DNA of 64,000 nt, taken from NCBI GenBank assembly GCA_963971535.1, contig OZ020594.1:114410418-114474417 (forward strand), written 5' to 3'. This document shows positions 1,204 to 63,801 of this stretch, one piece after another. A program made the position numbers and the translations under genes. How positions within the stretch are numbered: position 1 is the stretch's first letter; every line of letters begins with the position of its first letter. The notes below the pieces were generated by a model. The model ran no database searches, was not told the origin of the DNA, and saw only the letters and a program-made list of their open reading frames with translations. Origin of the DNA: Notolepis coatsorum. Taxonomy: Eukaryota; Chordata; Actinopteri; Aulopiformes; Paralepididae.

Positions 1204-1280
1204 TCAGGTCTCCTCAATGAATTAATCCGAGAGAGGAATCCGAATTTCAATCAATCAAACAATGCTGTTTGTTTAGACAT

Positions 1281-1486
1281 AACTTACGGTTATGCATATA
1301 ACCATAGTTATATGAGCATAGTGAGGCTCAGCGTCTATTGCAATACTCTTCATATCCAGTATTGAACTGAAATAAATTCTCACATGTACCTTTACATACC
1401 ATCATCTGTCTGGCCACACCCCCATCCGCTACCTACATAAGCAGGGGTGTGGCCATACCATCAGCTCCTTCCCAATCTTTCACCAC
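1281..1486. repeat. DIRS copy 1 inverted terminal repeat, 3' side
   Basis: It matches the reverse complement of 6396-6572 through the segments ctggccacacccccatccgc, taagcaggggtgtggccata and the final caccac. The outermost ~50 bp (aacttacggttatgcatata and on) are unique to this end, as is normal for DIRS, where the two ends differ and are both copied in the internal complementary region. Confidence 0.85.
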
Positions 1487-1517
1487 AAGGCAAGATCAAG
1501 GGGTCTTCAGTGAGTCC

Positions 1518-1608
1518 GACGCTGAGCGTCACTATGCTCATATAACTATGGTTATATGCATAACCGTAAGTTATATATCGCATAGCTCTGCTCAGCGTCT
1601 ATTGCAAC
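1518..1608. repeat. DIRS copy 1 internal complementary region
   Basis: The first half (to the aaccgtaagttat joint near 1573) is the complement of the left outer end. The second half (atatatcgcatagctctgct and on) is the complement of the right outer end. In the DIRS model this segment templates the circle junction. Confidence 0.85.
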
Positions 1609-1864
1609 ACAGGAGCTGAGCAGAGCTGAGCTCGACAAATGTACCCGCTGAGGCCCCCCACAACCATCAGAACCGGGGAGGACCCGAGCCCCCCGAACCC
1701 CCCTAGCGGAGGACGGGAGGGTGTCGGATCCGACTGCACGAAGAGGAGACTTCAGCAACTCAACGCACAGGGCGAGCAGACCGTGGGGCGTACCCACGAC
1801 TACACAAACGCACAACACGCATGCCACTAGGGAACGAACGGAAGGAACAAACCCCTGTTACCAC

Positions 1865-2249
1865 TAGGGTTGGGCATCGTTTGGATTTGAACGATTCCGG
1901 TTCCGATTCCGATTCTCCATATCGATTCCTGTTCTAAACGATTCTCGATTCCGATTCTTTGAGGTGCAGGTCAAAACAGGTCACAGCTTATTTCGAAGGA
2001 GATTTTTTATTTATTTTTTTTTCAAAAAGAAAATCAAACTATTCACATTTTCAGTTGACTTGATACAGTTTAATTTGGTTGCTGTACTGTAACTAGGGTA
2101 TTAAAGTAAAAAAAAAAAAAAAAAAAAAAAAGGAAAAAAAAGGAAAAAATCGAAATTTAGAATCGAAATTCAAATATGTTACTTCCGGTTCCAGAACCGG
2201 AAGTTAGGAACCGGTTCCTATTAGAACCGGTTTTCGGTGCCCAACCCTA
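1865..2249. mobile_element. hAT-type MITE, 385 bp, inside DIRS copy 1
   Basis: Terminal inverted repeats tagggttgggcatcg and cggtgcccaaccc(ta) are flanked by a perfect 8-bp target-site duplication GTTACCAC (1857-1864 and 2250-2257), the hAT signature. The interior is A/T-rich with short gattccgattc repeats and an A-run near 2110-2130. It has no coding capacity. It inserted after the DIRS copy was in place. Confidence 0.92.
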
Positions 2250-2510
2250 GTTACCACCCCTAATATCACAGGGTCAAGAGCAAAGCCCAACCCCGTGGCA
2301 AGGCCGTAGCAGTGGAGCGCGAAGGAGGACCCAGACCCAGAAGGGACTGGAACCCCCGGAAAAAAGGGGGCCTGGAGAGGCCAATGACGCCACAGCATCG
2401 AGACCCCACCAGGCGGTCACTAGTGACACCGCCCCCCACACCGCCAGCGTATTCGGACAGGGCCCATCCAAGAGCAGGCCCTTCCCCCCTACAGCACGCC
2501 GCCTAGCTCA

Positions 2511-2622
2511 CTGATCCTGGTATACCCAAGCAGTCACCCATCCAAGTACAACCCAGGCCTGAACCTACACAGCCTCCGAAATCGAACAAGATCGGGCGTG
2601 TCCAGGTTGGCATGGCTGTAAG
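2511..2622 (-). pseudogene. 5S rRNA-derived segment in DIRS copy 1
   Basis: The reverse complement aligns with vertebrate 5S rRNA over nearly its whole length: gcttacagccatgccaacct, then acacgcccgatcttgttcga, then ggcctgggttgtacttggat and gggtataccagg. The internal promoter area is altered but recognisable. It sits in the non-coding core between the gag ORF and the internal complementary region. No canonical 5S gene flank is seen. Whether it is transcribed by RNA polymerase III is unknown. Confidence 0.85.
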
Positions 2623-2859
2623 CTCGAAGCACTCAAGAGGCTACACCCACAGCGGGAGCAGGCAGCGCACCGGGTAGACAACCCCCAAAAAAGGTCGATC
2701 CCTCAATCCAGGCAACAGGCACTCGACCTGAGCCTGGAGCACTGCGGACTAGACAGGCGCCAAAAGGGGTCTGCTGAACACCCCCCCCCCGCGGAAGGGG
2801 TGTATGCTAGCATTGTTGTGCACCATGTCACAGCCTCCATAAAACCCCCCCGACTCTAG

Positions 2860-3830
2860 AGGGGCAGAGGCAGAGAAGGCTGACACGATTGGCAGACATC
2901 ATGAAACGTGCAGGGGCACACTCAAGCGGCCTACCCCGAGAGTTGACTCCGCTATCAACACACCAGGGAACCAACCACCCCCTTGGTTCAAACATGAGGT
3001 GGTTGTTCCTATAACCCCTCAAGAAAAAACTCCAAAACACAACTGCGGGTATACACTGGCTATACCGCAGTACAAGTGTTTCAGTTTTCAAAAAGGGGTT
3101 ATCCCAGGCCTACGGGTCGACGAAACAATTTCGGACCGGGCCCGGCACAGGGATGCCAGAGGAGTTCCATAAGAATCATTTCAACAGCCCCCTCCCAGCC
3201 ATGCTAAGAGAAGAGAGGGGCAAAAAGAATGGAGAAGGACCAGGCCCCCTTAGCGCAGCGCAAGGTACAACACAACATGGACCAAGCAACAGTGAGGGGT
3301 AACACGTAGTAACACAACCACGAACATCTCCATAACGTCAAACCCTGCAACACCCGGGCCGACCCGGCATTTTTCCCCCCGAAAAAAGCCAAGTCCCTCA
3401 GGGTACCAGAACAGCAGATCTGCGTCCCCGGTGGACAACGGGTTAACTGACCTGGACCGGCGCGACCAGAATCAGTCCTGTGCCCTAATCACGCCGCCAT
3501 CCCCAACCCTAGGAGGGGAGTAGGTACGCGTGTCGATCTAAAACATTATAGAGGGCGCCACCCAGACAGTCCCTTTCGTACCGCGCTCGGTGGCCCACCC
3601 CAAGGGCGTGAGACCCCTCTACCTATGCTTTGATCTATTCCGTTAAAATCCCCCAGATATGAACGAGAATTCGTCGAGACAACACTGGCGCTCGGAAGAG
3701 ACAAAACTCCATCCCAGTTGCCCCATAAAAATGCAGTTTTAATGATGAGCAACCAAGGCGCGCAAGCCCATGCGTGATTCCTATCAGAAGCACCCAGGGC
3801 CAGCACTATGTACACGTCGAGACCCAAAAC
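2860..3830 (-). other. Non-coding core shared by both DIRS copies
   Basis: Blocks here match the plus strand of DIRS copy 2 in the same order. 2860-3010 pairs with about 12345-12490, 3370-3440 with 11840-11900, and 3595-3690 with 11590-11700. Reading frames are short and broken in both copies, so the conservation is of DNA, not of an obvious protein. Between the blocks the copies differ by indels. Confidence 0.75.
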
Positions 3831-4504
3831 ACATCAATGGATAGTCTAACAAGACACCAGATACCGTTCCTCCAAGCCGCCAGGGAGAACGTCAAGAAGC
3901 CGCTTTTTTATTTTTCTACAGAAAAGAAAAAAATACGGACATGGGTCCCATGCGACCCGGCTGAGGGAAAACAACACCCCGTCAACCATACTTCATAAGA
4001 GGGGACGGGGAGCAACGTACCCTATGACGGGGGTAAACCCATGACTCAACAGACCTTTAAGGCGAGGAGTCAGGGAATCCCTAAACAATACCCTGTCAAC
4101 CTACTCCATAAGGAGGAGATGGGAACCCCCAGAGAGACTTCCCACGCGAGCAACAACTTGAAAAGTTTATGTAACATTGAGCCACGTGACCAAAAGGCTC
4201 AAGCTACATATATATTGAGCGTAGCAGAACTCTTAAGTTCCTACGCACCGCAACACCAACTTGACAATAACAGAGAACCACACATGGGGCCTGTAAAGAA
4301 CTCACGGAATCCCATGACTCAACCGACCATGATAGGTGAGGAGTCAGGGAATTCCCTACCCCCCCGCCACCCGACCAATCAGAAAAGAGGGAAGGAGGGG
4401 TTTATCCGGTTACCCCCTCACAAACCCATACCCCGTATACGATAATAATAAACAGCCATGATGATACCTTATGTAGCCAGCATGCTAATGAAACAGCGTA
4501 TATC

Positions 4505-6268
4505 CTAACAGGATAAGGTAACCCAACGCACGCTAGCCGCAGACGACAAACGTCTGCGAACAGGGTTTACAACAAGGCCAAGGTTTATGTGTGAACACGA
4601 CACCAGTGTTTTATGTTTCAAGAAAACACAGAGCCCACGGGGAGCCCTAGCCCCGGAGGGACGGTACTGGGGTGCCTGGTCTCGACGATCCCTACCGTCA
4701 CCTCCGGGCGTGGGTTGGCTGGCTGCGGTGGTCGAGGCACCCTCTCTCCTCCTGGCCTTCTTGGCCGAAGGACCAGCAGTGGCGGTGGTAGTGGCGGTGG
4801 CGACGGTCGCGGGTCCCCGACGACGTGGCCTCAGTGGAACTCCACCGGCGACATCGGGTGGGGGGAAATGGGGCTGGAGCACCGCACGCTCCTCCTCCAT
4901 ATCCCTGCAGGCCTCCGTCATGAGCTGCATCGCCGACCCGAAGAGCCCAGCATCGGAGAGGGGGGCCGTGAGCAGGGGAAGCCTCTTCCTGTCCGGCACT
5001 CGCGCCTGCTCCAGCCAAAGATGGTGCTGGGACAGAGTGGCCAGGGCGCGTATCTTCCCGGTGGCAATTGCCTGCAGATGCATGATGGCTCCAGCCGCCT
5101 GGGCGTGCAGGACTTGTTGTTGGTCGTCCAGCACCGTACCGCCCGTCATCATCCCGGACATAAAACTTGCTAGCTGTGCGATGTTGGATGTCGCAGCTAG
5201 GGTTTGAGTCCCGGCGATAAACGACTGGTCACTCCAGTTGGCCAACTGCCTAGCCGATTTCCCGTGGGGAACTGGCTTCCGCAACGGCTCCCACACCACC
5301 TCAGGACAAAGGAGCGACGCCATCGGTCTATCAAGCCGAGGCACCCCTTCCTTCATTCCCTTGACCAAACCCGCCACCCGCGTGACTTGCACGTAGGCGG
5401 GGGTAAGACCAGTGATGTGGGAGACCACCTGTCCCTGATGCACGTAGGCCTCCATTGAGGGGAAAAATGGGCAGACAACGCCCGTCTCCCTCACAGGACG
5501 ACGTTGCCATAGATGACCTATCAAGTCATCGGGGACAGGGGCAGGCAGTGGCTGCGGCAGCGGCACACCATTAGCGACGGCGGCTGCCGCCATGAGCTCC
5601 GGGAACAAGGTACGTAATTCCCCATGCGCACCTTCCTCCACTGAGCTCGCGTCCCTCACATACGAGAGGCTACCACTCATTGTAGTGCCACCATCCGATG
5701 TGGCTGATAGCAGGGCATCTCGTCGCTGAGTCGGAGGTTCTAACCCAACACCAGAATACGAGGGACCCCAAGGAGACATACCACCCCCTGCCACACACTG
5801 AGGGGGAGAGTGATGCGTCCCCACCAGGGCGTCAAATAAGAGCGCCTCTGCTCCCACCATGAAATCCTCCGTTTCCATCGGCCACGGAGAAGCAGAAGCA
5901 CCCTCATCTGGCTCCAGCAGCTCACCAAAAGCAGGCCGTTCGCCCCTGCAAGCCATCCTCCTACGACGGGAGCGAGCAGAGGTGAAGAGCTTGCGTCTCA
6001 GATCCTCTGCTACCAGAGGAGCCGTCGGCCCATCGGCCGACGGCCCCCCGGCGGCGGAGGAACCAGAGCAGGAACCAGGCCATCTCACAGGAGATGCCCT
6101 TGGTACACCAGCTCCTCGGAAAGGCAAACTATCCACCGGACGCCGATCGGGCGAGACTGACTGCCACGACCGCGGAGTCAATCCCGCCCCAAGACGCACG
6201 GCGGAGGCGGCAATGGCGAACCTCTGGTGAAGGGTGACGTTGCTAGTGCTACCTCCCGAAGAAAACAT
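4505..6268 (-). CDS. DIRS gag-like ORF1 (587 codons)
   Basis: A long open frame starts 128 bp inside the right inverted repeat. The N-terminal half is low-complexity and rich in S, P, G and A. A basic stretch (RSRRRR, about residues 100-105) precedes an acidic part. Residues about 350-470 resemble the ORF1 (gag) of fish DIRS elements: a run of A, Q and H residues with TQTLAATSNIAQLASF, then HHLWLEQARVPDRKRLPL and LSDAGLFGSAMQLM. After this comes a basic, PTPGG-type tail. The last ~45 residues look less protein-like and may be read-through. ORF1 of DIRS is thought to form a gag-like particle protein. The family call rests on remembered motif resemblance, not a search. Confidence 0.75.
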   Translation of the reverse strand: MFSSGGSTSNVTLHQRFAIAASAVRLGAGLTPRSWQSVSPDRRPVDSLPFRGAGVPRASPVRWPGSCSGSSAAGGPSADGPTAPLVAEDLRRKLFTSARSRRRRMACRGERPAFGELLEPDEGASASPWPMETEDFMVGAEALLFDALVGTHHSPPQCVAGGGMSPWGPSYSGVGLEPPTQRRDALLSATSDGGTTMSGSLSYVRDASSVEEGAHGELRTLFPELMAAAAVANGVPLPQPLPAPVPDDLIGHLWQRRPVRETGVVCPFFPSMEAYVHQGQVVSHITGLTPAYVQVTRVAGLVKGMKEGVPRLDRPMASLLCPEVVWEPLRKPVPHGKSARQLANWSDQSFIAGTQTLAATSNIAQLASFMSGMMTGGTVLDDQQQVLHAQAAGAIMHLQAIATGKIRALATLSQHHLWLEQARVPDRKRLPLLTAPLSDAGLFGSAMQLMTEACRDMEEERAVLQPHFPPPDVAGGVPLRPRRRGPATVATATTTATAGPSAKKARRREGASTTAASQPTPGGDGRDRRDQAPQYRPSGARAPRGLCVFLKHKTLVSCSHINLGLVVNPVRRRLSSAASVRWVTLSC

Positions 6269-6395
6269 TACAACTTAGCTATTTTTCTACTTAAATTGTG
6301 AGAGAGAGAAAAAAACAAGAGATAATGTTAACGCAGCTCCAACTTTCTTCAAAACAAATCCAGCAAACTCAAAGTGGTGTATACAGGCACTTAAC

Positions 6396-6572
6396 GTGGT
6401 GAAAATTGAAGAAGGAGTTGATGGTATGGCCACACCCCTGCTTATGTAGGTAGCGGATGGGGGTGTGGCCAGACAGATGTATGTAAAGGTACATGTGAGA
6501 ATTTATTTCAGTTCAATACTGGATATGAAGAGTATTGCAATAGACACTGAGCAGAGCTATGCGATATATAAC
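6396..6572. repeat. DIRS copy 1 inverted terminal repeat, 5' side
   Basis: It begins gtggtgaaaattgaagaagg and continues through the block shared with the other end, then has its own outer end (ctgagcagagctatgcgata) up to the ATAACT joint at 6568-6573. Confidence 0.85.
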
Positions 6573-8137
6573 TCACATAACGTTAGCTAGCTATCTCCGG
6601 GGTTCCCTCGTATTGTTGTTTTGATTCGAACGTGGCCGCGAGGCGTGTATATTTTTCCCAACGCAGTTTCACAGAGGCGATGACGTTGTCGCGTTTAGCT
6701 TTTAATGTGATTTGATTGGTCAATCGGTGGAAACGTTCTGGACTGGCCCGCCTCCAGATTTGAATTTGAAGACGCTAGAGTACTTCGCTGTCAAACGGCC
6801 CTGTGTTAAGGTGTGGGAACCCCTTTATTAAGCTTGAATCTTATTGGCTAATAATTGGTTCTGGAGTCCACAACCATGAATCACAAGGTGGAAGCTTGAA
6901 AAAGACACCTCCCCCCTCCCCTCCGTTCGATATTCTGTCTGAGCTGCAGTGACTGAGCACAGCGTGACTGCCAGCCTGCCTCAGTGAGTCTGACAGTGTT
7001 AGAGAGAGTGAGAAGGAGAAGTGGGAGAAAAAGAAAAAAAAAATATATATATAACAGAGATGAAAAATAATTATTTTTTATTATTATTGTAAACTATTTA
7101 AAAAAATATTATGTTTATTTTTTATTTTTTATTTTTCATATTCCATATTTCATATTCATATTTTTCTGGGGAAGCATGGCTTCCCTTGGCTTCCAGGAAG
7201 ATTCGCCACTGGTAGTTCAGTCTTAGTATTAATGGTATTTTACTATCAAATGCTGCATGAGAGGAGAAGCCAGACAAATCCAGGCAACCTGAGGCAGCGA
7301 CATTGAAATGTCAACAGTATATTGTTTGATTAAGTTAATTAATGTTTAATAATATCACATGTTTTATAAAAACAAATAGATTAGATTAAGATGTATTATG
7401 TGTTAATAAGACTATATACGTGTTAGTATTAGCATCCTAAACACATTTATTGTTAGATTACAAGACAGTTATAAAAGAAAAAAAAGTTTGTGACACCTAC
7501 CTGACTGCCAAGGTGTTAAAAATGCAGCCAAACTTTAGATTGGATTTTCTCTGTTTCTCTGTGAGACTTGAGGTTTAACTAGATTCAAATAAGCATAATC
7601 TTCTTCAGATATGTTCAGATTTCTTCTGTACATTCTGTACTTTCATAATCTAAATACCTGAAAAATGACAGAGGGAGACTTGTGCCACGAACTGCTGGGC
7701 TCGGTCACAATTTAGACTGCTTAAGAACATTAATAAAATCCTTATGATTTATTATATATATATTATATAATAGCATTACAAACAAATGTATTGAGCCTTA
7801 CTAACTTACCTATTCTGACATTGTTAACCTTTGCTAAGCTTTTTTGTTGCTTTATTAAGATTTAAAATATATTTTTTCTTCATTTATTAGCAGTTAACTA
7901 TGTACTTATGAACACTGGGACTACTGGAACTAAAGTGACAACCATGTCTTATTAAGGTTAATAAATAATTTATTTTGCACTTATTAACATGTTTTACACA
8001 GCTCCCCCATCTGGAATGAGCACTATATGTTGAATAGGAAATTACATATAAATACAATGTGAAGCACACAAACACACGTTTGAACAGCTCTTTAAAAAAC
8101 ATTTGATTTATAATTTTTTGTTTCCATCACTAATATT
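6573..8137. other. Unassigned region between DIRS copy 1 and a hairpin
   Basis: No credible coding sequence. It starts with cacataacgttagctagcta, a sequence style common in fish DNA, then a GC-richer part to about 7010. From there A/T-rich DNA has several tatata runs. A segment at 7950-7990 (cttattaaggttaataaata) reappears inverted at 13670-13715 on the far side of DIRS copy 2, which suggests a shared older repeat family. I cannot name an element. Confidence 0.5.
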
Positions 8138-8294
8138 ATATTGTAAAAAATATTCTGAAAACATTATATAAAACATCACTAATCACATCAACAAAAAAGA
8201 AATAGTGCAATTGTAACATATTCCATTTATTTGCATTGTGTTGATGTGATTAGTGATGTTTTATATAATGTTTTCAGAATATTTTTTACAATAT
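8138..8294. repeat. Perfect 56-bp inverted repeat with 45-bp spacer
   Basis: The arm 8138-8193 (atattgtaaaaaatattctg ... cacatcaaca) is repeated as an exact reverse complement at 8239-8294. The transcript or single strand could fold into a long hairpin. No target-site duplication was found, so it may be a local inverted duplication or part of a larger repeat. Confidence 0.93.
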
Positions 8295-8465
8295 ACAATT
8301 TACATGACATGCTCCTCCCTGTTGATGTTGAGCACCACACACAGCATTCTGGTGTAGCTCCATCCAGGGACTTCTGCAGGGTGGGCTTCAGGGTCCAGCA
8401 TTCACTGCCATATAGGAGAACAGACTCCACTTTTGCATAAAAGAAGATGACCTTAATAAGGCATT
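8295..8465 (-). pseudogene. LINE reverse-transcriptase scrap
   Basis: The minus strand reads LLYGSECWTLKPTLQKSLDG, a stretch typical of the region after the reverse transcriptase core in several LINE clades (VLLYGxExWTLT). Only about 45 residues remain. The right end is cut by DIRS copy 2. Confidence 0.6.
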
Positions 8466-8649
8466 GTTCTGTATCGTTAGTGGCTTAGCTTGGCTTCGCC
8501 TTCTGCACTATCTCGCGTACGTGCACGCGTACTGAATAAACCACAAATGTACCTCTAATACCAGTATTAGTCTGACCACACCCCTCATCAGCTTACCTTC
8601 ATAAGCAGGTGTGTGGTCACCTGCTCTCCTTCTCGCTTTCACCACAAGG
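8466..8649. repeat. DIRS copy 2 inverted terminal repeat, 5' side
   Basis: It matches the reverse complement of 13422-13634 (caggtgtgtggtcacctgct, taccagtattagtctgacca, cgcgtacgtgcacgcgtact). The outermost gttctgtatcgttagtggct is specific to this end. Confidence 0.88.
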
Positions 8650-11500
8650 AAGAGGTGCCTCGGTAGATCCCCACACTTGACACCATGATGGAAGAAATTG
8701 GATTAGGAACAGCTTGGGAAACAAGGATACGTTGACATCATATCTTTATTTTCTCTCTCACTATTTTCGAGAAAATACGGCGATATTGTCTTCGTACTGG
8801 AGTGTCTAGAAGATGATGATCATTCTACAAACCCTCCACCGGTTTTCGTATTGGGAGCACGCCGCTGCATGCTTCTCAACTGCAGTTCCTTGCTGTGTTT
8901 GTTGGGGTGAAACCTGTCAGGCCACAGCTGAACTGTCGGACATGCCGCTGTTGTGAGGAGCGGTGCGTTCCAGGTTGGGTGAGTAGTGTTTGCTGGCGGG
9001 CTCCACTTGTCTGTTAGTGCTATGGGGGCTACTAGACAAAGTTTATGGAAACCGGCCCCAGGCTAGGGTCCTTTGTTTAGCCGTCTAGGCGACAGAAGGC
9101 CTTGGTCTGGCGACCATTATAGTTTTAACTAGTGGGCCGCGACCATTGACACTGGTGATCCCTGTGTGTTCTGGACGAGTGGATTCTCTCTGTCACCGTG
9201 TTAAGACCCCATCTTTCATATCCAAATGAGAGTATTCCTTCACGAGGGGATATGTGCATGTAATGTGCGATAGCGGCAGATTCATGTTCAAAGTCAGCTA
9301 TACAGGCCAGTTGGTACTGTGCTGATTCCGCCGGACGTGTTAATGTCACCGTTGTGAAGCGGTGTTGACGTCTTGTTTTCTCTTTTCTCTTAAAAAGTGA
9401 GGAGGGTTCAGAACGGCGGCCTGTCTGGGTGAGTGTTATGTCATTGTTTACATGTTCATAGCTTACGGTTAGCCGGTCGGTGGCCTGGCGCGGGGTAGCT
9501 TAGGCTTCTCGCGCGCCGCCGGGAGCTCGCTCCTGATCGCGTGCGTCGTAGATCGGCGTCTCGCGAGCGGAAGCGATAGCACCAGAACGGTTGGAGCAGC
9601 CGTTAGCTTGATGCTATTCTGTTGAACGTGCTTTGATTTTTAACATGTTTTACACTCTTGACCACGACGTCATCTTTGACAGGGGATGTTCGTCAACCCT
9701 GCCTGAGCCTAGACGGGGATTGCGTCAACAAAGAGGGCTGTGTTCTACGGTGGCTTATGACTGCACTTCGCTGATCTGCGTTCCGGGCAGGTACGGGGTT
9801 GGCCAGACCCTCATAACACGTCTTCTGGTTTTACCTTGCTAAATGTATTGTGAATGACGGTGTTTTTTCCCAAAACGTGTGTTGTTGCAATGCATTTGAG
9901 ATACGTTGCGGGTTGTGTGTGAGCTGTTTTTGTCACTGGCAGTAGCTTCTCCGTGCAGGTCGTGATGTATTGATCTGGTTGTTGTGTGAGAAACATCATG
10001 GTGTTTATGTGTACCGTGTACTCACTACTAAGGCAACTAACCTATGAAGCTATGCTTGGTGACGAGTGAGTAAAAGAATGTTCTTTCTCAGACTGTAATG
10101 ACAATGGACAGTGAGTTCACACATTAACAGGTTTTCCTGTTTTAACTGGCCGTGTTGAGGGTAAAATAGGAGGATTGTGTTTTTCCCCCCCCGGTTCCCT
10201 GGGGACTTTATCACCTCCTATCAGACATGTTGTGCATTAATTGTGTCTTTTGTGTGGTAGGGATACGATGTAACTCTCAGCTTGATTGCTGAGGTTGTGC
10301 TAAATCTGCTGGAGAAACTTATTTCCTAAAGGGAAATTGGTTTGGTTGCTGTCGTGTGCTTAGCAAGGCCTGTGGTCGATACTAATCAAGAATGATGTAT
10401 TCTCTCATTGTGATGATGATGGGTTGTGTGTGTCATGTGACCTACAACTGGGTTGTACTGGCCACAGAAGCACATGTGTATGTTGGACCGGGGTTCTTAG
10501 AGCCCTCTCTATTCTGTGTTTTTCCTTAGTAAAAATCAGATAGCAGGTTAGCTCGTGCGCTGTGTGGAGCTGTGAAACGCTTCATAGAGCTGACTATGAC
10601 TGTGTCATATTCTCTTTTTGTCGTTACGTCGTATCATGGGTGTGGGGTCGTAAAGGGGTGAACTGGTAACCTTTCCTCTCCCCATTGTTCTGTCGGTCAG
10701 GGGTACACCCCCTGTCCTTCAAGGTTCCCGTCACGTGGCGGTTCGGCACGTTACGGGGGGGGGGGGGGGGGGGGGGGGGGAGGGAGTTCCTGGTCCCACG
10801 GCCTGGTATATTGGGCGTGTGCACCGCAGGAATTCCCCCGCCATAGAGTACGTCACCGTGCGCGTCTCTGTTGGTAGGACTTCCGTGTGCTGTTCAGGTC
10901 CATGTGATGGATCTGTTTTCAGGGGGGGTGGTCAGGGCTCCTCCTCACCAAGCGCCTACTCAGGCCTTCTGTGAGTTCGGACTCCTTCTTCCATGTGATC
11001 CATGTGAGGAAGCCTCCATCAGAGTACAGAGCCTTCCTCCTCAGATTGTCAAAGTGAGTGGACCCTCTAGAAGGGTCCTTTTCTATTGTATGTATATTCG
11101 ATTCAATTCGTTTATTGAGTGTGTATGGGTTCGGTGCCTCTTCCCCGGAGGCCCTAAAACCAGTTTTTTACATGGCTCAAGGTGCAATATATTCTTTTCA
11201 ATCTGTACAGCTCGCGTGGGAAGTCTCTCTGGGGATCCCCGTCTCTTTCCTATGGGAGGGTGGTGGGATGTAAAAATTTGAACATTTTTTACCCCGGCTG
11301 TGTAGACTGGGATACATACTGTTGATGCTTCCTTCTTTCTATTCCAGAAGTGTTGGAGTTAGGGAGTGTCACACCCCTCTTGTCGTTCCCCTGGGCGCCT
11401 TGGGGATTCAATGGCAGGTCTAAATAGCCTGTTCATTGATGGGGGTGTGTCCCGACGCACGTATAGTGCTAGCTCGCTGTAAACAGGCGATTGACTGGCA
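8650..11500. other. Non-coding 5' half of DIRS copy 2
   Basis: About 2.85 kb without a credible ORF. It is rich in G and T on the plus strand. A CpG-rich patch lies at 9470-9600 and several gtgagt donor-like motifs occur (for example near 8979 and 9428). A run of 26 G occurs at 10755-10780. It could be a 5' leader or captured foreign DNA. Confidence 0.5.
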
Positions 11501-11985
11501 CGCCTTAGTTGCTTGTGGTTGAAACAGCGTTTTTATAAAGCAACTGAGATGGGGGTTTTTCCTCTTCCGGCGACCACATCCCATGACCTGGGTGGGTTGT
11601 CGACGGATCCTCGTTCATGTCTGGGGGATGATGACGGGATGGATCTGAACATATGTAGTGGGGTCTCACGCCCTTGGGGTGGGCCACCAGGCGCGGTTCG
11701 TCCCGACGTCTGGGTGGCGCCTTCTTTTCATGTTAAGATCAACACGCATATCTGCCCTTTTCCTGGGGCATGTCGGCGTGGTTAGGGCACGGGACTGGTT
11801 CTGGTCACGCTGGTCCAGATCAGTTGAACCCGTTGTCCGCCGGGGATGCAGATCTGCTGTTCTGGTACCCTGAGGGACTTGGGCTTTTTTCAGGGGGAAA
11901 AATGCCAGGTCGGTCTGGGTGTCACAGGGTTAAGCGCTATGGAGACCCTGGTTGGGTATGTTTTTTACTCAGCACTGTCGTCATG

Positions 11986-12105
11986 GCTTACAGCCATGCC
12001 ATTCTGTACGCGCTCGATCTCGTCGGATCTCGGCCGCTACACAGGTTGGTCCTGGTTAGTACTTGGTTGGGAGACCGCCGGGGAATACCAGGTACGGTGT
12101 GCTTA
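11986..12105 (+). pseudogene. 5S rRNA-derived segment A in DIRS copy 2
   Basis: About 120 bp, the full length of 5S rRNA. It begins gcttacagccatgccattct, continues gctcgatctcgtcggatctc, then cctggttagtacttggttgg, gagaccgccggggaatacca and ggtacggtgtgctt. The internal control region (box A/C part) is well kept. A T-run (ttttt, near 12123) follows, which could act as an RNA polymerase III stop. This is the best-preserved of the three copies. Confidence 0.88.
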
Positions 12106-12685
12106 GGGGCTGGTTCTCCATTGTTTTTCGCTCCTCTCTCACGCATGGCGAAGAGGGGCCTGTGGGGGTGGTTTTTTGACCTCCTCTGGTGACCCTGTGC
12201 TTCCTGTACCGCCAGGCCCGGTCCGAAGTGATGTTTGCGACCCGTAGGCCTGGGTTAACCCTTTTTGGAAACTGAAACACTTGTACTGCGGTATAGCCGG
12301 TGTATACCCGCAGGTGTGTTTTGGAGTTTTTTCTTGAGGGGTTATAGGAACAACCACCGCATTGGGTAACACCGAGGTGGTTGGTTCCCTGGTGTGTTGG
12401 AGCAGTGTCAACTCCCGGGTTCACCGGTTGAGGGTGCCCCTGCACGTTCATGACGTCTGCCAATCGTGTCAGCCTTCTCTGCCTCGACCCCTCTGGGTGG
12501 GGGTTGTTAAATGGAGGCGTGGTCATGCAACACCGCCAGCTTACGCTCCTTCCGCCGGGGCGGCTGTGTTCAGCTGTCCCCTCTGGCGCCTGTCTCGTCC
12601 GCAGTCTCCAGGCTAGGGTTAACAGCCTGTTGCCTGGTTTTTCCCCGGTGCGCTGCCTGCTTCCGTTGGTTAACCTTTTTTGTGT

Positions 12686-12812
12686 GCTTACGGCCATGCT
12701 GACTGCCTATTCTGCAGGGTCAGTGTGCCAGGCGGTGTACTATTGGGGGGACGGGGCCCGCTCGGCTTACTGGCCTGGTTGGTTCCGCCTGGGAATACCA
12801 GGTGCAGTAACT
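12686..12812 (+). pseudogene. 5S rRNA-derived segment B in DIRS copy 2 (degenerate)
   Basis: It begins gcttacggccatgctgactg and ends tggttccgcctgggaatacc aggtgcagt, matching both ends of 5S rRNA. The middle is diverged and partly replaced. By order within the core it corresponds to the 5S-like segment at 2511-2622 of copy 1. Confidence 0.65.
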
Positions 12813-13300
12813 GAGGGGCCTTTGTCCGAATACGCTGGCGATGTGGGGGGCGGGGCACTACGTGCCCACCTGGTGGGGTCTTGATGCTGGCATCATGGAC
12901 TTCTCCGGGCCCCCATTCCAGGGAGTCCAGTCCTTTTGGTGGGTCTGGGTCTTCCTTCGTGCTCCGCTGCTACGGCCTTGCCACGGGGTTGGGTTTGCCC
13001 TTGACCCCGTGATTCTGGGGGCAGTAACGAGGTTGTTCCTCCGTTCGTTCCCGGGTGGCATGCGGGTTGTGCGTGTGTGTAGTCGTGGGTCAAGCCACGG
13101 TCTGCTCACCCTGTGCGTTGAGTTGCTTGAGTGCCTCTTCGCACGGTCGGGTCCGTCGCCCTCCCGTGACGTCCCTAATAGGGGGGCTACCCTCCATTAG
13201 GGGGGGTCGGGGGGGCTCGGCCCTCCCTGTTCTGATGGTTTTGGGGGGCTGTCAGCGGGGTGTATTTGTCAGCCAAGTGGCTCCGCTTGGCCTCCCTTGT

Positions 13301-13395
13301 GCAGAAGGCGAAGCCAAGCTAAGCCACTAACGATACAGAACGTTAGGTTATGACTATAACCAAGTTCTGTTAGTTAGGGGCGATGCTTGGCTTCG
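13301..13395. repeat. DIRS copy 2 internal complementary region
   Basis: Its left half (gcagaaggcgaagccaagct, aagccactaacgatacag) is the complement of 8469-8505. Its right half (ttaggttatgactataacca, agttctgttagttaggggcg) is the complement of 13580-13631. Confidence 0.9.
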
Positions 13396-13421
13396 GACGG
13401 CCGCTGCAGCCCTTGACCTCA

Positions 13422-13634
13422 CCTTGTGGTGAAAGCTTGGGAAGGAGGAGAGCAGGTGACCACACACCTGCTTATGAAGGTAAGCTGATGAGGGGTGTGG
13501 TCAGACTAATACTGGTATTAGAGGTACATTTGTGGTTTATTCAGTACGCGTGCACGTACGCGAGATAGTGCAGAAGGCGAAGCCAAGCATCGCCCCTAAC
13601 TAACAGAACTTGGTTATAGTCATAACCTAACGTT
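13422..13634. repeat. DIRS copy 2 inverted terminal repeat, 3' side
   Basis: It begins ccttgtggtgaaagcttggg. It carries the shared block and then the end-specific ccaagcatcgcccctaacta up to GTT at 13632-13634. Confidence 0.88.
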
Positions 13635-18750: not shown

Positions 18751-20715
18751 CTAATGAGATGGATGGGCACTATGCTTGGAGCACAACAAGTCCAGTCTGG
18801 GCTTGATTTTGGAGACAGCGACTCGGAGATCATCCTCCACATTCAGACGTGATCTGTACTTGTTTTTTATATAGGTCAGGGCAGAGAATGTTTTTTCGCA
18901 TAGGTATGTCGATCCAAATGGCAACAATACATCCATTGCGGCATTGGATAGCTGTGCGTATTCCCCCTCAGCGGATATCCAGAACTCAGCCAGTGGCTTG
19001 GACTGAAACTCCGTCTTTAAAGTTCGGTCGCTTTACAGTTCAACAAGCGCGTCCTCCAGGTCGGATGGCAGGTGTGATGCTGTTACTGTGAATGGGGATC
19101 TTATCCAGTCATGCTGTTCTGGTGCTGTTTCCTCGGGGAAATACTTTTTAAATCGTTCAAGAAGGGCTTTGAGGTGACTGGTTATGGACATCTTCACTGT
19201 GTTCACACTGAGTTCATTTTCCTCCATAAACTCATCCAGCTCTGGAAACATATCAATCCTGCCCATTGCTACCCGTGCAATCCAACGCTCGAGTTTCCTC
19301 ATGAACGCCAGTATTTTGTCATTGAGCGACAGGATGCTTGTATTTTCACCCTGTAGTGAGAGATTAAGTCCATTCATTTTATCAAATATGCCAGACAGAT
19401 AGGCTAGCCTTGTTATCCAGCCAGGATCGGAGAGGTGGGCAGCGAGCTGGGGCGCATTCTCCGCCAGAAACAAGCGCACCTCATCCTGCAGCTCAAACAG
19501 GCGCGTGAGGACATTTCCTCGTGAAAGCCACCGCACCTCAGTATGGAACAGCAGGCCTTCATGCTCAGAGCCCATTTCGTTGCAGAGAGATGCAAACAGC
19601 CTGGTGTTGAGTGGACGAGATTTTATATAGTTGACTATTTTTATGGCTGTGTCAAGAACACCTTTAAGCTCTGCATCGAGCGTTTTGCCCGCAAGAGCTT
19701 CTCTGTGAATGATACAGTGTGTGAACTTCACGTGAGGTGCCACTTGCAAGACTCTGGCTTTCAGTCCTTTATTTTTCCCCACCATCGCCCCAGCGCCGTC
19801 GGTACACACACCAACACACTCCTTCCAAGACAGTCCCTCCTCTTTCAGTTTCTCATCCAGTTTTAGGAAAACATCCTCACCTGTGCATGTTCCCTCCAGT
19901 GCAGTGCACACAAGCATGTCCTCCAGCTTCCCATCAAATTTGTACCTCACAAATACAAGCAACTGGGCACAGTTCGAGATATCTGTCGATTCGTCTAGTT
20001 GCAAAGCATATTTGCCTTGCTTCACTCTGTCAATAAGCTGACACTTGATGTCCTGGGCCATATCTGTGATTCGCCGGGCAATTGTGCCGTTCGAGAGCGG
20101 CACGGATTCAATTTCACGAGCCAGTTTATCCCCATGCATATTCCGACTCAAAGCTATAGCAGCGGGTTTGATGAGAGTTTCCCCGATTGTGTGTGGCTTT
20201 TTTGCCCGAGCAATTAAATATGCCACCTCATTTGAGGCCTTTTGCGCTTTCGCAGGGACTGATGTTTGTGTATATATCACCTTGTTTTGGCCTAGCAACT
20301 CTCGCTCTTTTCGGCGAAAAAAATCAACGTGTTTTTCAGCGAGGGAGGGATGCTTTGTTTTTAAATGCCGTATCATTTTGGAAGGCTTTAAGCTTTCATT
20401 TGAAAGGACGTCGGCACACACGACACATTGAGGAAGTTGCACCTCGTTCACAACTTTACATATGAATCCATGTTGGATATATTCCTCACGATATTTTCGA
20501 TATCTATAGGTAGGCTGTCGCTGGTCCAACTTTGGGTGGGTGCTTCTTTGTGTCGCACTTGGCCCTGGTCCCACATCATCCACATGGCTACTTTGACTAT
20601 CACCTCCTCCCAATCCTGTGTCAGTTGATGGCCTTTCTGGCGGTGGAACTGCTTCTCGACTCTCCTCCGCTGGCTTCTCTGCTTCTCTGCTTTTTGCCGC
20701 AATTAACCAACGTTT
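18751..20715 (-). pseudogene. hAT transposase (ZBED5/FAM200-like), one premature stop
   Basis: The cut-and-paste transposase of the surrounding element. Order: a BED-type zinc finger at about 20480-20340 (CVVCADVLSNESLKPSKMIR, then LKTKHPS), a long central DDE domain interrupted by the hAT helical insertion (LQLDESTDIS, VCTDGAGAMVG, HTEVRWLSRGNVL), and the C-terminal dimerisation region (YLCEKTFSALTYIKNKYRSR). The frame is open from the 5' end to 19036. A TAA at 19033-19035 stands where relatives have a coding codon, and the same frame resumes to 18751. The expected start before KRWLIAAKSREAEK reads ATA rather than ATG. With one stop and a changed start, this is a recent death. Confidence 0.9.
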
Positions 20716-20814
20716 TATTTTGAATTTGAGCTAGCTAGCAACAAGTATACATTTGCCAATCTCCGACCGAAATTCAAATAACCACAGTGTGTGTCGCTAG
20801 TGTCTCGCCGTACC

Positions 20815-41978: not shown

Positions 41979-42584
41979 CTTGGTGCCGTTCGACCTCGGA
42001 CAACGGACAACGCTCGTCTGTCCACCGGGGACGCTGTCTGCACGCCGCTTCTTCATTCAACTGGCTGTGCTGAGTACAACGTCGAACGTTAACGTGTGCG
42101 CATAGGATAAGCGCACATGTGATATTGGTTGTTTTTGTTTGATAATAATATGCTATAGATTGTAATTGTAAATATTATTGTAATGATACAGTAATTGGAA
42201 ACGACACTAGTTGTACAAGACCATTGTATTTTTTGTTTCTTTCTTTTTCTTTCATCTGTTATGTATTGTGAATAGATAGCCTATGGTCTAATGTTCAAAG
42301 TTTGAGCAGTAACAAGTGTTGCTATCTAACACATGCCCATTGTAAATATAATTAGGAACTAATTTGTTTATATGGTTGGCTGGTAATGAGATATATATAT
42401 ATATATATATTTTTTTCCCCCCATCTGTTCTGGTAAATTGTGAATGGATAGCCATACAGTAGCCTACATGTATTCGTGTGTAGTCTAGTGTTCAAAGTCT
42501 GAGCAGTAACGAGCGGCCATTTAACACATTCCCACATACTTTTCTTTTGTTTATAGCCCTCTAAAGCATTTTTATTTTTAATTC

Positions 42585-44410
42585 TTGAACATGTCCGAGG
42601 CATTGGCACCAGATCTGGAGATGGTGGGTATGATGCCTGTATATGGCAGGGGTCAGTCAGCTCTTATGTATGGGAGGGGAAGACCAGTGGGTCCTACAGA
42701 ACTGGGTCAGTCAGCTCTTATGTATGGGAGAGGAAGACCAGTGGGTCCTACAGAACTAGGTCAGTCAGCTCTTATGTGTGGGAGGGGAAGACCTGTGGAA
42801 CTGAGTCAGTCTACAGTTCGCCAGTCAGTGTTTGAAGCAGTGGGGCCAGTGGTCACATCTACTCCAATCACGCATGGCAATGACGCAGCCCCGCAACTCG
42901 CTAGGTCAGAGGATTTAGGCAGCCTCGTCAAAGACCTTGCCATACAGATAGGAGAACAAATTGCATCTACTCTGCATGCCATGCACCAGACCAGTTATCA
43001 GCCCCAGGTCCCCGTCCCTGAGCCCCAGGTCCCCGCCCCTGAGCCCAAGGTCCCCGCACCCCAACCACAATGTTTTTCTGGGTGTGCAGACATGTCAAGG
43101 ATGAAAGTAATAGTGCAGGCGGAGACTAAACCACCTCCGTTCTTCAGAGGTGATCGCACTGAGCCAGTCTCCATACATGAGTGGGAAGACATGATGCTAG
43201 TGTATCTGTCTAGAACGAGTTGTAAAACCGACAGAGAATTGTGTGATCTAGTGATGGGCAGGTTGACTGGTAAAGCTAGAGACATAGTGAAGGTGTCACT
43301 GCGTAGCCGGCCTGAGTTGTCTGCCAATATGACCCCTGCAGCTGTGTTTGACATTTTAAAGCGTAACTTCAGCGAGCTGACATACTCCAGTATGCCCATG
43401 GCCGACTTCTATGCCATGGTTCCCAGGCCTAGTGAGGGAGTGATGGATTACTGGGTCCGGCTGAATAAAGCAATCGATGTTGCAGATGAGTGTCTACGTC
43501 GCCGGGGTCGGTGTGTTGATGATGCGAGCGCCGAGGTCGTGATGATGTTGATCACGCACTGCCCAGATCCCAGTCTAGCTATGTCCTTCCAGCTGAAGCC
43601 TGTGGAGCAGTGGACTGCAGCTGAGGTCCAGGAGCGTCTAGATGGTTACCAGAGAGACCAAAGGAGATCCAGTTCACGGGCACAGCAGGTTAACATCTCG
43701 GCATGCAGTCAGAGCCCCATGGCTGGTGGCCCATCCCCTCCTGTCCTGTATGGTGGGGCCCAGCAGTCTTCGGTTGTTGTGCAGTCACAGCAGCCTCCCT
43801 CCTTTGGCTCTTCTCATGAACAGCTTGGTGAGCCCCACAGGGTCTTAGCCGCAGCGCAGGCCCTCAGCCCTCCTACACCCATCTTAATGACTCCTGCCCC
43901 GGCGAGTCCCTCCTCTGTAGACCCTTCATCAGTTGGTTGACTTGTTAGACCGTGTGCTCTCACTGTGTTCGGCCTCGCTGGCCCCAGCAGTACAGGCTCA
44001 GCCTGGTCAGCCGTCTCGCTCCCACATCGAGCCAAGTAATGGGCAGACGTACCACTCACGCAACCAGGCCAGACCGAGTCAGCAGAGTTACTCGCGCAAC
44101 CAGGCCAGACCGAGTCAGCAGAGTTACTCGCGCAACCAGGCCAGACCGAGTCAGCAGGGTTATTCGCGCAACCAGGCCAGACCGAATCAGCAGAGTTACC
44201 CGCACAACCAGCACGACCCATGCGAAGTGTGTCAAGACAGCAGGCATAACACTTATCAACACTGTATGCTCTATCGGCTGTGCCACCGCTGTTTCCGCCC
44301 TGGTCACTATGAGGACTCATGCCCTGGCATCTCCCAGCCATCAGCTGGATCAGCATCTCCCTCCAACAGACCCGCTCAGACCCATCCTGTCAATGCTGCC
44401 CCTTTAAACT
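42585..44410 (+). pseudogene. gypsy gag region (fossil)
   Basis: Capsid-like sequence: PPPFFRGDRTEPVSIHEWED, RELCDLVMGRLTGKARDIVK and FSELTYSSMPMADFYAMVPR, all typical of Ty3/gypsy gag. Near the end is a cysteine/histidine knuckle (CHRCFRPGHYEDSC). Two internal repeats are notable: an 18-residue unit GQSALMYGRGRPVGPTEL (three copies, from about 42650) and a 12-residue unit with RNQARPSQQ (about five copies, 44055-44210) just before the knuckle. Gag would form the particle that packages the element's RNA. Confidence 0.88.
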
Positions 44411-44429: not shown

Positions 44430-47400
44430 AGGGATAGTATGGGCAAAGTGAATGAAACCCTCGAGAGAGAACCAGACTTAGAAGCCATCTATGTAAACAG
44501 CTGCAGATTACTTCCAGAAAACGAAACAGCCATCTTTGTTGGGTCACAGAGAGTGAACGGAGCTAGTGAACTGTTTTATGCTCCAGTGTTAGTCAGTGAC
44601 AAGTACACATTGAGGGGGATGTTGGATTCTGGTAGTATGTCATGCACGCTCAGTGAGGAGGGTCCGGCCCAGACCCGCCCGGGGTGATAGGCACAGTGAA
44701 GCTATGCCATGCGGTTACCCTCCTCCCTCAGCAAGGAGTATCTAGTGTGGGGGAAGCTACCAGCCAGTGCACATGTGTCTCCCGGGAGTACAGTCATTGT
44801 GGAGCCCACCTCAGCGAGGTCGGCCCCTCGCAACATCATAGTGGGGAGAGTGGTGACTCCCATGTGGGGCAACCGCTGGGTCCCCATGAAGGTCTTGAAC
44901 CCGACACAGAGCCCCATCACGCTCCGTCGTAATGCCAAACTGGCTGATGTCTCACCTTGTCTTGCTGTTGAAGATCTGTCCATCACTCAGGGCCTGTGTC
45001 AGCAGCAGTCTGGTGTCTCCAGCTCCTCTGCCTCTCCTGGCTCCTCGTTAGATGCTGAGCAGATGTTGGCCGACTGTGGACTGGAGGACGTGAACATCAA
45101 GTCATGTGAGGTGTCTCCTGATGGGAAGAAGAGGCTAGCTGACCTACTGGTGACGTATCAAGATGTCTTCTCCAAGGACAAGCTGGACTGTGGAGAGGTC
45201 AAAGACTTTGTGCACCGTATCCACCTCTCGGACGACCGTCCGTTCCGCCTGCCCTTTAGGCGTGTCCCCCCAGCTGACTATCACAAACTGAGAGAGGTGT
45301 TGACTGAGATGGAGGTGAAGGGGATAATCTCCAAGTCGATGAGCGAGTATGCCTCACCTCTGGTCATGGTGTGGAAGAAGAATGGAGACCTCAGGATCTG
45401 TACGGATTTCCGCTGGCTCAACGCAAAGACCGTCAAAGATGCTCATCCGTTGCCCCATCAGTCCGACTGCCTTGCTGCCCTTGGTGGGAACGCTTTCTTT
45501 AGCACCATGGATCTGACCTCAGGGTTCTACAACGTCCCTCTCCATGTGTCTGACCGGCGGTACACTGCCTTCACAACACCACTGGGCTTGTACGAGTACA
45601 ACAGACTCCCACAAGGCCTGTGCAACAGTCCGGCATCTTTCATGCGTATGATGCTCGGCATCTTTGGCGACCTCAACTACTCCAGCCTCTTGTGCTACTT
45701 GGACGACCTGCTGGTGTTTGCGCCGTCTGAGGAGGAGGCGTTGAAGCGATTGGAGGTGGTCTTCTGCAGACTCAGAGTGAACAACCTCAAGCTCTCACAG
45801 AAGAAATGTAACTTCTTACAGAGGTCGGTCAGGTTCCTGGGTCATGTGGTCGATGCCAGTGGAGTCTCTGTCGACCAAGAGAAGGTCTCCGTCATCTCTG
45901 GCTTCCAGAGAGAGGATCTGATGGAGTCGGATGGCCGCACTCCCGCTCAGAAGAGAGTGAGATCCTTCCTCGGCATGGTGTTGTATTACCAAAATGTCAT
46001 ACATGGCTGCTCCAGTATAGCCAAGCCCCTCTTTGCCTTGACAGCTGGCCAGAAGAGAAAAGGGAAGACCAGTGCTGGTCGTACGAGAGCCGGTACGTTC
46101 CGGAAGCTGACTCCTGAGGACTGGACTCCCGCCTGTGAGACTGCGTTTGAGGAGCTCAAGAGGGCGCTCGTCGAATGTGTAGTGCTGGCTCACCCGGACT
46201 TTGAGAGGCCGTTCATCCTCTCCACTGACGCGTCGTTGGACGGTATTGGAGCAGTGCTCTCTCAAGTCCCTGTCGGGGAGGAGAAGGCCAGACCAATCGC
46301 CTTTGCGAGCAAGTCGCTCAGCCGCAGTCAAGCGAACTATCCTGCCCACAGACTGGAGTTCCTGGCCCTCAAATGGTCAGTGTGTGACAAATTCAGTCAC
46401 TGGCTCAAGGGTCACAAGTTCACTGTGTGGACTGATAATAATCCACTCACGTACATCATGACCAAGCCTAAACTTGACGCATGCGAGCAGCGCTGGGTGT
46501 CCAAGCTGGCCCCTTACTGCTTCGACATCAAGCATGTGCCTGGGAGGCTGAATACAGTGGCCGATGCGCTGAGCAGAGATCCCTTCGTGAGGCCGCTCAG
46601 CCGGCGTCTCTTGACCGAGCCTTACTCCGCTCTTCTGGAGCAGGTGTGTGATGTGGAGAACAGGGGGGTGCAGGATATCTTCCGTCTGACATGCCAGCCC
46701 CAAGCTCTAGTGACCCCTTCTGGATGTGCAGTTGCTGATGTGTCCATGTCGGCGGATGAGACCTCCACAGTGCTTTCCTCCCAGGAAGACTGGGACTCTG
46801 CGCCAAGACACAGGGCAGTATCTATGGCGGGTCACCTGTCCACTGTTGTCACTTCCGACCACGACGCAGTCTCCTCCTTGTCGTTGGCCGATCTGCAGGC
46901 CCGCCAGCGAAAAGACGCCACCGTCTCCAGAGTCATCTTTTACGTTGAAAGGGGCCGCAGACCCTCCAGACGCGAGCGCTGCTATGAAGATCAGCCCGCC
47001 TTGAGGATGCTGAAGCAGTGGGAGAGGCTCGCTATGCACAACGGCATATTGTACAGGGTTACGAAGGACCACATGACCAGGCACAAGAGGTTCCAGTATG
47101 TTCTGCCTGAGTCCTTGAAGTCGGAGGCGCTGTCTGGAGTGCATGACTTGGCTGGTCACCAAGGTCAACCTAGAACGCTGTCTCTCGTACATCAGCGTTT
47201 CTACTGGTATGACATGGAGAAGGATGTGCGGGGCCATGTGAGGAACTGTCCCAGATGCGTACTCAGCAAGACTCCAGAGCCGGCGGCCAGAGCCCCTCTG
47301 GAGAGCATAATAACCTCTGCACCACTGGAGCTGGTGTGCATCGACTTCTGGTCAGCTGAAGATAATAACAACAAGTCTGCGGATGTTCTGGTCATAACTG

Positions 47401-48680
47401 ACCACTTTACAAAGCTGGCCCACGCCTTCCTCTGCAAAGACCAAACCGCGAAGAAGGTTGCTAAAAAGCTGTGGGACAACTATTTCTGTGTGTATGGCTT
47501 CCCACAGCGCCTGCATTCGGACCAAGGAGCGAACTTCCAGAGTGAGTTGATGGCGGAGCTGCTGGAGTTAGCAGGGGTCACGCAGTCCCGGACCACTCCG
47601 TATCACCCTATGGGGAATGATGGCACTGAGAGATTCAATCGGACCCTGGGTGGAATGCTGCGCTCCCTGCCATCGGAGTCTAAGCACAGATGGCCCCAGA
47701 TGGTCCAGAGCCTGACCTTCGCCTACAATTGTACACAGCATGAGACGACTGGCTTTGCCCCCTTTTACCTGATGTTCGGGAGGGTCCCGCGTCTGCCAGT
47801 TGATCTGCTGTTTAAGAATGTGCTCCAGGACGAGGTGGTCTGTGACTATGATGCCTATGTGAAGTCCCTGGCGGCCGATCTCCAGTCTGCTATGCTGTTG
47901 GCCCAGAGGCACACCTCAGTGGAACAGGGGCATCAGGCTGACCAGTACAACAAAAAGATGAAGGGCTTGCCCCTCTCGGTGGGTGATCGGGTCCTGGTGG
48001 CGAACAAGGGCGCCAGAGGGAAGCGGAAGCTGGCGGACAAATGGGAGCCGGACGTCTACACCGTCATCGCTTCCAGACCACAGTGCCACATATATCGGAT
48101 CAGAGACCGGACTGGACGGGAGAAGACAGTCCACAGGAACCTCCTGCTTCAGGTCAACTTCCTCCCCTTGGACGGGTCATTTGATGATGAGGGTCTAGCC
48201 GCGGACAGCGACACCTGTGCGCCTGGTGAAGCCTCCCTCTCAGTCATGCCTGAAGCTAGCGCCTCAGACGCGGACAGTGTGGCGGCAGAGCCTTCCATGG
48301 GAGATGGACCTTCCATGGGAGATGGACCTGATGGGGGTCGCACCGCATCATGGGTGCAAGAGGAAGCCTCCCTCTCAGTCATGTCTGAAGCTAGCGCCTC
48401 AGACGCGGACAGTGTGGCGGCAGAGCCTTCCATGGGAGATGGACCTTCCATGGGAGATGGACCTGATGGGGATCGCACCGCATCATGGGTGCAAGAGCAG
48501 TCTTCAGTGGAGAGTGAGGATGACGGGCTACATCCGTATTCCCCCCAGGGGATGTCCCCTGCTCTGAGTGAGCTTCCAGTGGCAAGTGCCGCCAGTCCCC
48601 CACTGTTGCTTGCTCCACCGAGCTCCAGTATGAGGGCAGTGTTGTGTCCACACAACCAGGGCGTACTCCTGAGCTAATGA
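44430..48680 (+). pseudogene. gypsy protease and pol region (fossil)
   Basis: In order: an aspartic protease trace (GMLDSGSMSC), reverse transcriptase (LRICTDFRWLNAKTV, STMDLTSGFYNVPL, LCYLDDLLVFAPS with the catalytic Asp pair), RNase H (FILSTDASLDGIGAVLSQ, VWTDNNPLTYIM), integrase zinc-binding part (HDLAGHQGQPRTLSLVHQRF, CPRC), integrase core (ELVCIDFWSA, LHSDQGANFQSEL, TPYHPMGNDGTERFNRTLGG) and a C-terminal chromo-like or GPF-type part (DLLFKN ... PHRNLL-like). Near the end, two 45-residue repeats (48228-48497, PSMGDGP motif) enlarge the tail. The domain order with integrase after RNase H defines Ty3/gypsy. Confidence 0.92.
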
Positions 48681-63738: not shown

Positions 63739-63739
63739 T
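61829..63739 (-). CDS. LINE reverse transcriptase (636 codons, open)
   Basis: The linker region (FPNQKPWVDSTIRTAL) is followed by the reverse transcriptase core: NTRKAAGPDGITGRILKSCA, STIIPVPKKPSPTCPNDYRP, LLFIDYSSAFNTIVPTRLVD (first Asp), GSPQGCVLSPLLYSLYTHDC and IVKFADDTVVVGLISDNDEK (Asp pair), then SKTKELIVDYRR-like and FKYLGVHISEDLTWSTHIGT, and the C-terminal AWYGNSTAQDKKALQSVVRS. The frame has no stop. The first codon is made at the junction with the palindrome, so it is not a true start; in a full LINE an endonuclease would precede it. The exact clade (Rex1-like or other) is not certain. Confidence 0.88.
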   Translation of the reverse strand: MFEGSASDVSEYADTVVSYITTVADGIVPTKTARVFPNQKPWVDSTIRTALNSRTTAYNLGRESGNMEEYKASVYTLRKAVKLAKRTYAEKLETQMAQNDTRGLWRGLKTITDYKVSAPAMGSDDASLADKLNSFYARFGVDSVAASPLASDVTGAPAVVEGGGQPRGGGGALSLSEHSVRRAFMQVNTRKAAGPDGITGRILKSCANQLAPVFTAIFNQSLAESVVPACFKMSTIIPVPKKPSPTCPNDYRPVALTSVVMKCFERLVKDHICASLPSDMDPMQFAYRTNRSTDDAVSQVLHSTLSHLDRQKGGYVRLLFIDYSSAFNTIVPTRLVDKLIELGLSSALSAWVLDFLSERPQAVRVGGQTSNTITLSIGSPQGCVLSPLLYSLYTHDCVAKFSSNSIVKFADDTVVVGLISDNDEKAYREEVEVLERWCQDNSLLLNIGKTKELIVDYRRGQRETHTPLRINGATVDRVSSFKYLGVHISEDLTWSTHIGTVVKKAKQRLYHLRQLRKFRVSGKILQSFYSGAVESILTGNITAWYGNSTAQDKKALQSVVRSAERTTGIALPPLQALYNKRCKSRACRIMKDPHHPNNSLFQLLRSGRRLRILETKTERLRLSFFPQAIRALNNEH

Positions 63740-63801
63740 TATTGCACTTTTGATTTACTGTTGTAGTGAAATGCAGCAGGAATGCTGCTTTGTGTTTGTT
63801 G

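Follow-up and report, generated by a model that had tools for sequence, protein, structure and literature searches.

The 64,000-nt stretch of Notolepis coatsorum DNA analysed here (the window) contains two elements with the architecture of DIRS1-like retrotransposons. Copy 1 occupies positions 1279–6576 on the minus strand (window position = 6701 − position in copy 1). Its left inverted terminal repeat (6396–6573, minus strand) corresponds to a right repeat at 1306–1486 (91.3% over 183 bp), and its internal complementary region (1518–1610, minus strand), like the repeats found by self-comparison, matches the element ends at 93% over 45 and 98% over 57 positions. Copy 2 (5.17 kb; 8466–13634, plus strand) has a left inverted terminal repeat at 8466–8649 (plus strand) and a right repeat at 13422–13609 (93.1% over 189 bp), and self-comparison placed its internal complementary region at 13299–13395 (plus strand), with 100% matches to the element ends over 43 and 57 positions. 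The direction of copy 2 was inferred from where this internal complementary region sits. The first-pass annotation of this DNA had called the two hosts DIRS-type, and the presence of inverted repeats and an internal complementary region in both copies bears this out.

The main coding feature of copy 1 is a 589-aa open reading frame (ORF) (4505–6274, minus strand) that has no Pfam match and is inferred to be gag-like from its place in the element; its relatives share 77–100% identity (best 74 scored of 18,118 first-look candidates). A tblastn search for gag in copy 2 gave no match (best E 0.16). Of the 15 plus-strand stop-free stretches of 80 aa or longer that lie outside the gag-like ORF, the 10 tested had no Pfam match, whether to reverse transcriptase (RT)–RNase H, to tyrosine recombinase or to anything else. 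When the genome was searched with PF00589 for autonomous DIRS elements, 18 matches were returned, among which we found neither a locus resembling copy 1 or copy 2 nor an RT-bearing partner element; the ORF at one of these loci (L075) presumably resembles a domesticated recombinase gene. Because the tested pieces lack RT and recombinase matches, both elements look non-autonomous, and they are DIRS-like by structure only.

Several other features of the window were recorded. An AT-rich palindrome at 8143–8289, which matched MIR6140 on both strands and MIR2599 on one strand under the gathering scores, is perhaps a small inverted-repeat transposon. A 565-aa ORF at 19033–20730 had only weak zinc-finger and DUF4371 matches below the cut-off. 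A 1,325-aa ORF at 44700–48677 carries RT, RNase H and integrase domains and is Gypsy-type by domains, and a nearby 452-aa ORF (42582–43940) gave a weak PNMA match (E 0.13). Finally, a 641-aa ORF at 61829–63754 with RVT_1 and ALKBH8_N matches is LINE-like.

Three segments within the two elements had been proposed to derive from 5S rRNA, and we examined them with the Rfam covariance model RF00001 (gathering score, 38). Two gave full-length matches: module B1 of copy 1, at 2505–2623 on the minus strand (60.0 bits, E 4.6e-10), which shows 21/119 differences from the commonest host 5S, and module A2 of copy 2, at 11986–12103 on the plus strand (66.6 bits, E 8.2e-12), which differs from host 5S by 20 substitutions and 1 deleted base. 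The 5S assignment is therefore secure for these two segments, and both are oriented in the sense direction of the host element, as had also been proposed. The third segment, B2 (12686–12812, plus strand), yielded nothing in Rfam, even with the E cut-off relaxed to 1 over the first 16 kb of the window, yet its ends are 5S-like: it keeps a 5S-like start, GCTTACGGCCATG, a run of 26 nt close to its end matches host 5S perfectly, and its alignment to host 5S, confined to the ends, reached a z of 7.8 against 300 letter shuffles. Since its middle is unrecognisable, we treat B2 as a 5S-derived remnant.

The full-length modules lie about 1.0 kb (copy 1) and 1.3 kb (copy 2) inside the nearer terminal repeat. 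Copies 1 and 2 have collinear blocks in common in their non-coding 3′ halves (73–82% identity for the longer blocks), and within these homologous flanks B1 and B2 stand at nearly equal positions (site B). The flanks of site A, occupied by A2, and those of site B are unrelated to each other, which indicates at least two capture events.

Genome-wide searches showed that the modules are regular parts of two element families. With copy 1 as query, 40 of 40 scored places (best 40 of 2,112 first-look candidates) matched at 95–100%, and in 30/30 loci, including the window copy (L009) and a segmental duplicate (L010), the element was the same and carried its module at an unchanged position. With copy 2 as query, all 40 scored places (best 40 of 1,346 candidates) matched at 100%, and the same element surrounded the module in 30/30 loci; the whole 3′ half was intact in 29 of these, L059 being without c2 4146–4342. 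Family-2 copies were 99.2–99.9% alike, and L088 and L089 were full length at 99.6 and 99.7%. An Rfam scan covered 39 of the 63 filled loci; these 39 stand for 37 places, since two pairs coincide (L087 and L088 with L018 and L039). It detected one 5S match each in 20/20 and 19/19 loci, all above the gathering score. Fixed positions in two DIRS-like families, with a module in 39/39 scanned loci, argue against two chance insertions, the outcome that would have undone the original proposal. Because every scanned filled locus passes the gathering score, routine Rfam annotation would probably label many such transposon pieces as 5S genes.

Copy 1 also holds a nested insertion with inverted ends (1864–2243, no strand assigned; ends CTAGGGTTGGGC and GCCCAACCCTAG) that is separate from the 5S module. 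It was missing in 28/30 family-1 loci, the two carriers being the window copy and L010 (G000 C29:114125541-114125791), which lies about 287 kb from copy 1. Because the nested insertion and the outside flank are common to both, copy 1 and L010 are probably the products of a segmental duplication rather than of two transpositions.

Exact words gave a further view of module A2. A 42-mer of its core occurs at 4,351 exact places genome-wide, versus 0 for the reversed control; the first 100 of these places, all on contig C1, were scattered with a median spacing of 0.52 Mb, and the exact junction stood at the fixed offset in 68 of them but not in the other 32. The junction word was counted 2,941 times, and a flank 42-mer at 12348–12389, in the non-coding half of copy 2, had 287 exact copies. 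These counts were set aside as a test of A2 conservation, because they involve a single control word from a stretch that also differs between both families.

Elements without a module were found at both sites. At site A, locus L090 lacks the module and any 5S match, and its flanks are 94.8% and 87.3% identical to copy 2; a joined-flank query of 240 bases aligned from end to end at 7/40 scored places, with 84–87% identity. L090 (G000 C13:123209910-123219923) also contains three gag matches at a fixed 4,182-bp step, and consists of partial DIRS-like units repeated in tandem. At site B, the joined-flank query matched at 40/40 scored places with 95–96% identity, and exact junction words numbered 254 for the empty and 188 for the filled state, counts of unequal strictness in that the words were 22 and 23 bases long and filled copies with TTCAA were missed. 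The site B junction reads TTCG-GGGCGG in two empty copies and TTCGA-[5S]-AGGCGG when filled; comparison of the filled letters with these two empty copies revealed neither a target-site duplication nor a tail. Duplication was judged at site B only, the divergence of the flanks at site A being too great for a clean junction reading.

The host 5S matches (best 47 scored of 112,738 candidates) map to C7 and C29, with one on C4, in repeats that step by about 232 bp. The modules match only the 5S gene part of these repeats, from end to end, and the spacer is absent. Among 30 family-1 modules, 24 had no indels and differed from the most frequent of the 34 host variants at 14–22 of 119 positions, forming a ladder of subfamilies; the remaining 6 had small insertions. 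The modules nearest to 5S thus carry 14/119 differences, as against approximately 10/240 between the empty flanks and copy 1 (Fisher P 0.012); similarly, A2 differs from host 5S at 21/119 positions, compared with 38/414 between the A2 flanks and L090 (P 0.013). Because the modules are farther from 5S than the filled flanks are from the empty ones, either an already diverged source was captured, or capture took place earlier and the empty sites are losses; probably, the source was not today's canonical 5S. Changes shared by A2 and the B1 module of L035 (G7A, A115G and A119T) were considered as proof of common origin and rejected (P 0.21).

We propose, with a probability of about 0.52, that a full-length 5S-like sequence was captured in sense at sites A and B of the DIRS1-like 3′ half and then amplified with the element. 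A 5S-like RNA may have been packaged together with the element RNA, and reverse transcriptase could then have switched template onto it, which would have led to capture, in sense orientation, at the two sites within the non-coding 3′ half. The module would subsequently have been amplified as part of the element and would have been a neutral passenger since. Template switching onto a 5S-like RNA fits the 5S ends, the missing spacer, and the absence of a tail and of a duplication. A precedent for such a route is available, since, in the portion used here of a review, particles of MLV are described as containing 5S rRNA, with recombination with host RNA occurring through template switching (PMC4997597). 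The natural filled and empty sites open 5S capture to study.

A tentative alternative, which we consider rather unlikely, is that the modules are old and were present in the common ancestor, and that the empty sites are later clean losses, produced by a polymerase that jumped across the base of the 5S hairpin. Such a history would account for the excess distance of the modules from 5S and agrees with the near co-position of B1 and B2 in homologous flanks; moreover, the best 40 empty copies (378–386 bits) are as near to copy 1 as are many filled ones (371–414 bits, with the segmental duplicate and one partial match excluded). A relic of the site A module in copy 1 would point the same way. The first-pass annotation had indeed described the module of copy 2 as decayed in copy 1, but this was not established: the only candidate is a weak, hand-picked 36-nt segment (P ~0.01 versus shuffles and 0.02–0.06 versus other 36-mers of the element), which was rejected. 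The gag sequences linked to the sites speak against losses. With the query and its duplicate excluded, identity to the gag of copy 1 was 88–94% in 5 filled and 81–88% in 4 empty elements (P 0.026), which places the empty copies outside the filled group, in a comparison of few rows where two of the five filled pairs were matched by eye and the filled rows were picked for likeness to copy 1, which favours this outcome. Furthermore, losses would have to be exact to the 5S ends at two sites.

Improbable in our view is a capture at the DNA level, either of a diverged 5S pseudogene or by transfer from another DIRS family. Either source would account for the surplus of differences from canonical 5S, but the modules have the 5S ends and no spacer.

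We also weighed a functional role, in which the module is a 5S mimic that acts as a cis Pol III promoter or as a TFIIIA- or L5-binding RNA aiding export, packaging or translation. Each family carries one full-length sense module, family-2 copies are closely alike with the A2 word in 4,351 exact copies, and 5S promoters occur in the LTRs of Cassandra and Ajax, as far as the sections of these sources used here describe (PMC10853983, PMC10886601). The module is, however, missing from many close relatives, and the Rfam scores of family 1 fall from 73.4 to 50.7 bits. As for the promoter, the full-length copy had been described as retaining the internal control region and being followed by TTTTT. 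With box A, IE and box C at what we take to be their positions in the Xenopus numbering, IE (altered at 1/6 and 0/6 positions in the two modules) and box C (2/18) are mostly kept, but box A is altered at 4/15 positions in both B1 and A2, one of the four in A2 being the deleted base. TTTTT does occur at 12124, 20 bases past the end of A2, and the first TTTT after B1 is 139 bases off. The combination of intact boxes at these assumed positions with a terminal T-run, which would characterise a working 5S gene, is thus found in neither B1 nor A2.

Selection on the module was likewise not apparent. Across 29 family-1 copies (L010 excluded), mean pairwise divergence was 0.036 in the module and 0.040 in the flanks, a ratio of 0.90 (bootstrap range of the per-site ratio, 0.49–1.37) that must be read with the choice of copies by similarity to a query including the module in mind, and the module ranked 188 among 408 windows of equal length. 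The modules, which on a functional view were expected to be more conserved than their flanks, therefore diverge like them in family 1. Compared with random placement of the same changes, no excess of 5S-fold pairs was kept (P 0.51 for the majority row, 0.18 for A2 and 0.32 for L033), and fold z-scores were weaker in all three modules (−1.1, −0.2 and −1.7) than in host 5S (−3.2). Paired bases did vary less than unpaired ones (0.025 versus 0.050), in the direction of a mimic, at P 0.087; structure conservation of the modules was not above chance. Taken together, flank-like divergence in family 1, pairing at chance level, altered box A and weaker folds leave the suggested maintained role as a Pol III promoter or a TFIIIA/L5-binding RNA without support, and we consider the mimic quite improbable. 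We give equally little credence to the related idea that DIRS-like elements took up 5S two or three times (A2, B1 and perhaps B2) because a mimic helps, for example through an L5/TFIIIA route. Most likely, the 5S copies were captured and travel with the elements as passengers, not as working components.

SINE3 elements have a tail after the 5S head and a target-site duplication. Insertion of such a 5S-headed SINE by target-primed reverse transcription, the captured SINE of the earlier proposal, would share the 5S-derived head and has a counterpart in the SINE3 insertion from which Cassandra and Ajax have been proposed to derive (PMC10886601, in the part used), but it is highly improbable, since the modules here end tailless at the 5S end and site B has no duplication.

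These data suggest that DIRS-type retrotransposons, beyond LTR elements and SINEs, can apparently acquire and disseminate 5S over its whole length. Among the titles and abstract beginnings searched, a coverage that excludes most subscription papers and Repbase, no report of 5S inside DIRS elements was found; "5S rRNA" has 0 occurrences in the main text of two DIRS papers (PMC3266345, PMC9210276), and the word DIRS is absent from the main text of PMC10886601 and PMC10853983. The comparisons that follow refer to the portions of these sources used here. DIRS1-like retrotransposons have inverted terminal repeats and an internal complementary region, as do the copies here (PMC3266345, PMC9210276), whereas in our copies no RT or tyrosine recombinase was recognised and 5S is carried. 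SINE3 is likewise a dispersed sequence derived from 5S (PMC10886601). The nearest cases found are the Cassandra and Ajax TRIMs, in which 5S lies inside long terminal repeats; in the present elements the modules are internal and the repeats inverted. Cassandra, in plants, is similarly a non-autonomous retrotransposon with a 5S-derived segment that has neat borders, but it is an LTR element with 5S in its LTRs and conserved promoter boxes (PMC10853983), whereas the elements described here are DIRS-like, with 5S internal and box A altered. Ajax, in nemerteans, is likewise an animal non-autonomous retrotransposon with a 5S-derived segment, but it carries only the promoter part of 5S, in its LTRs (PMC10886601), whereas the modules of N. 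coatsorum span the whole 5S length.
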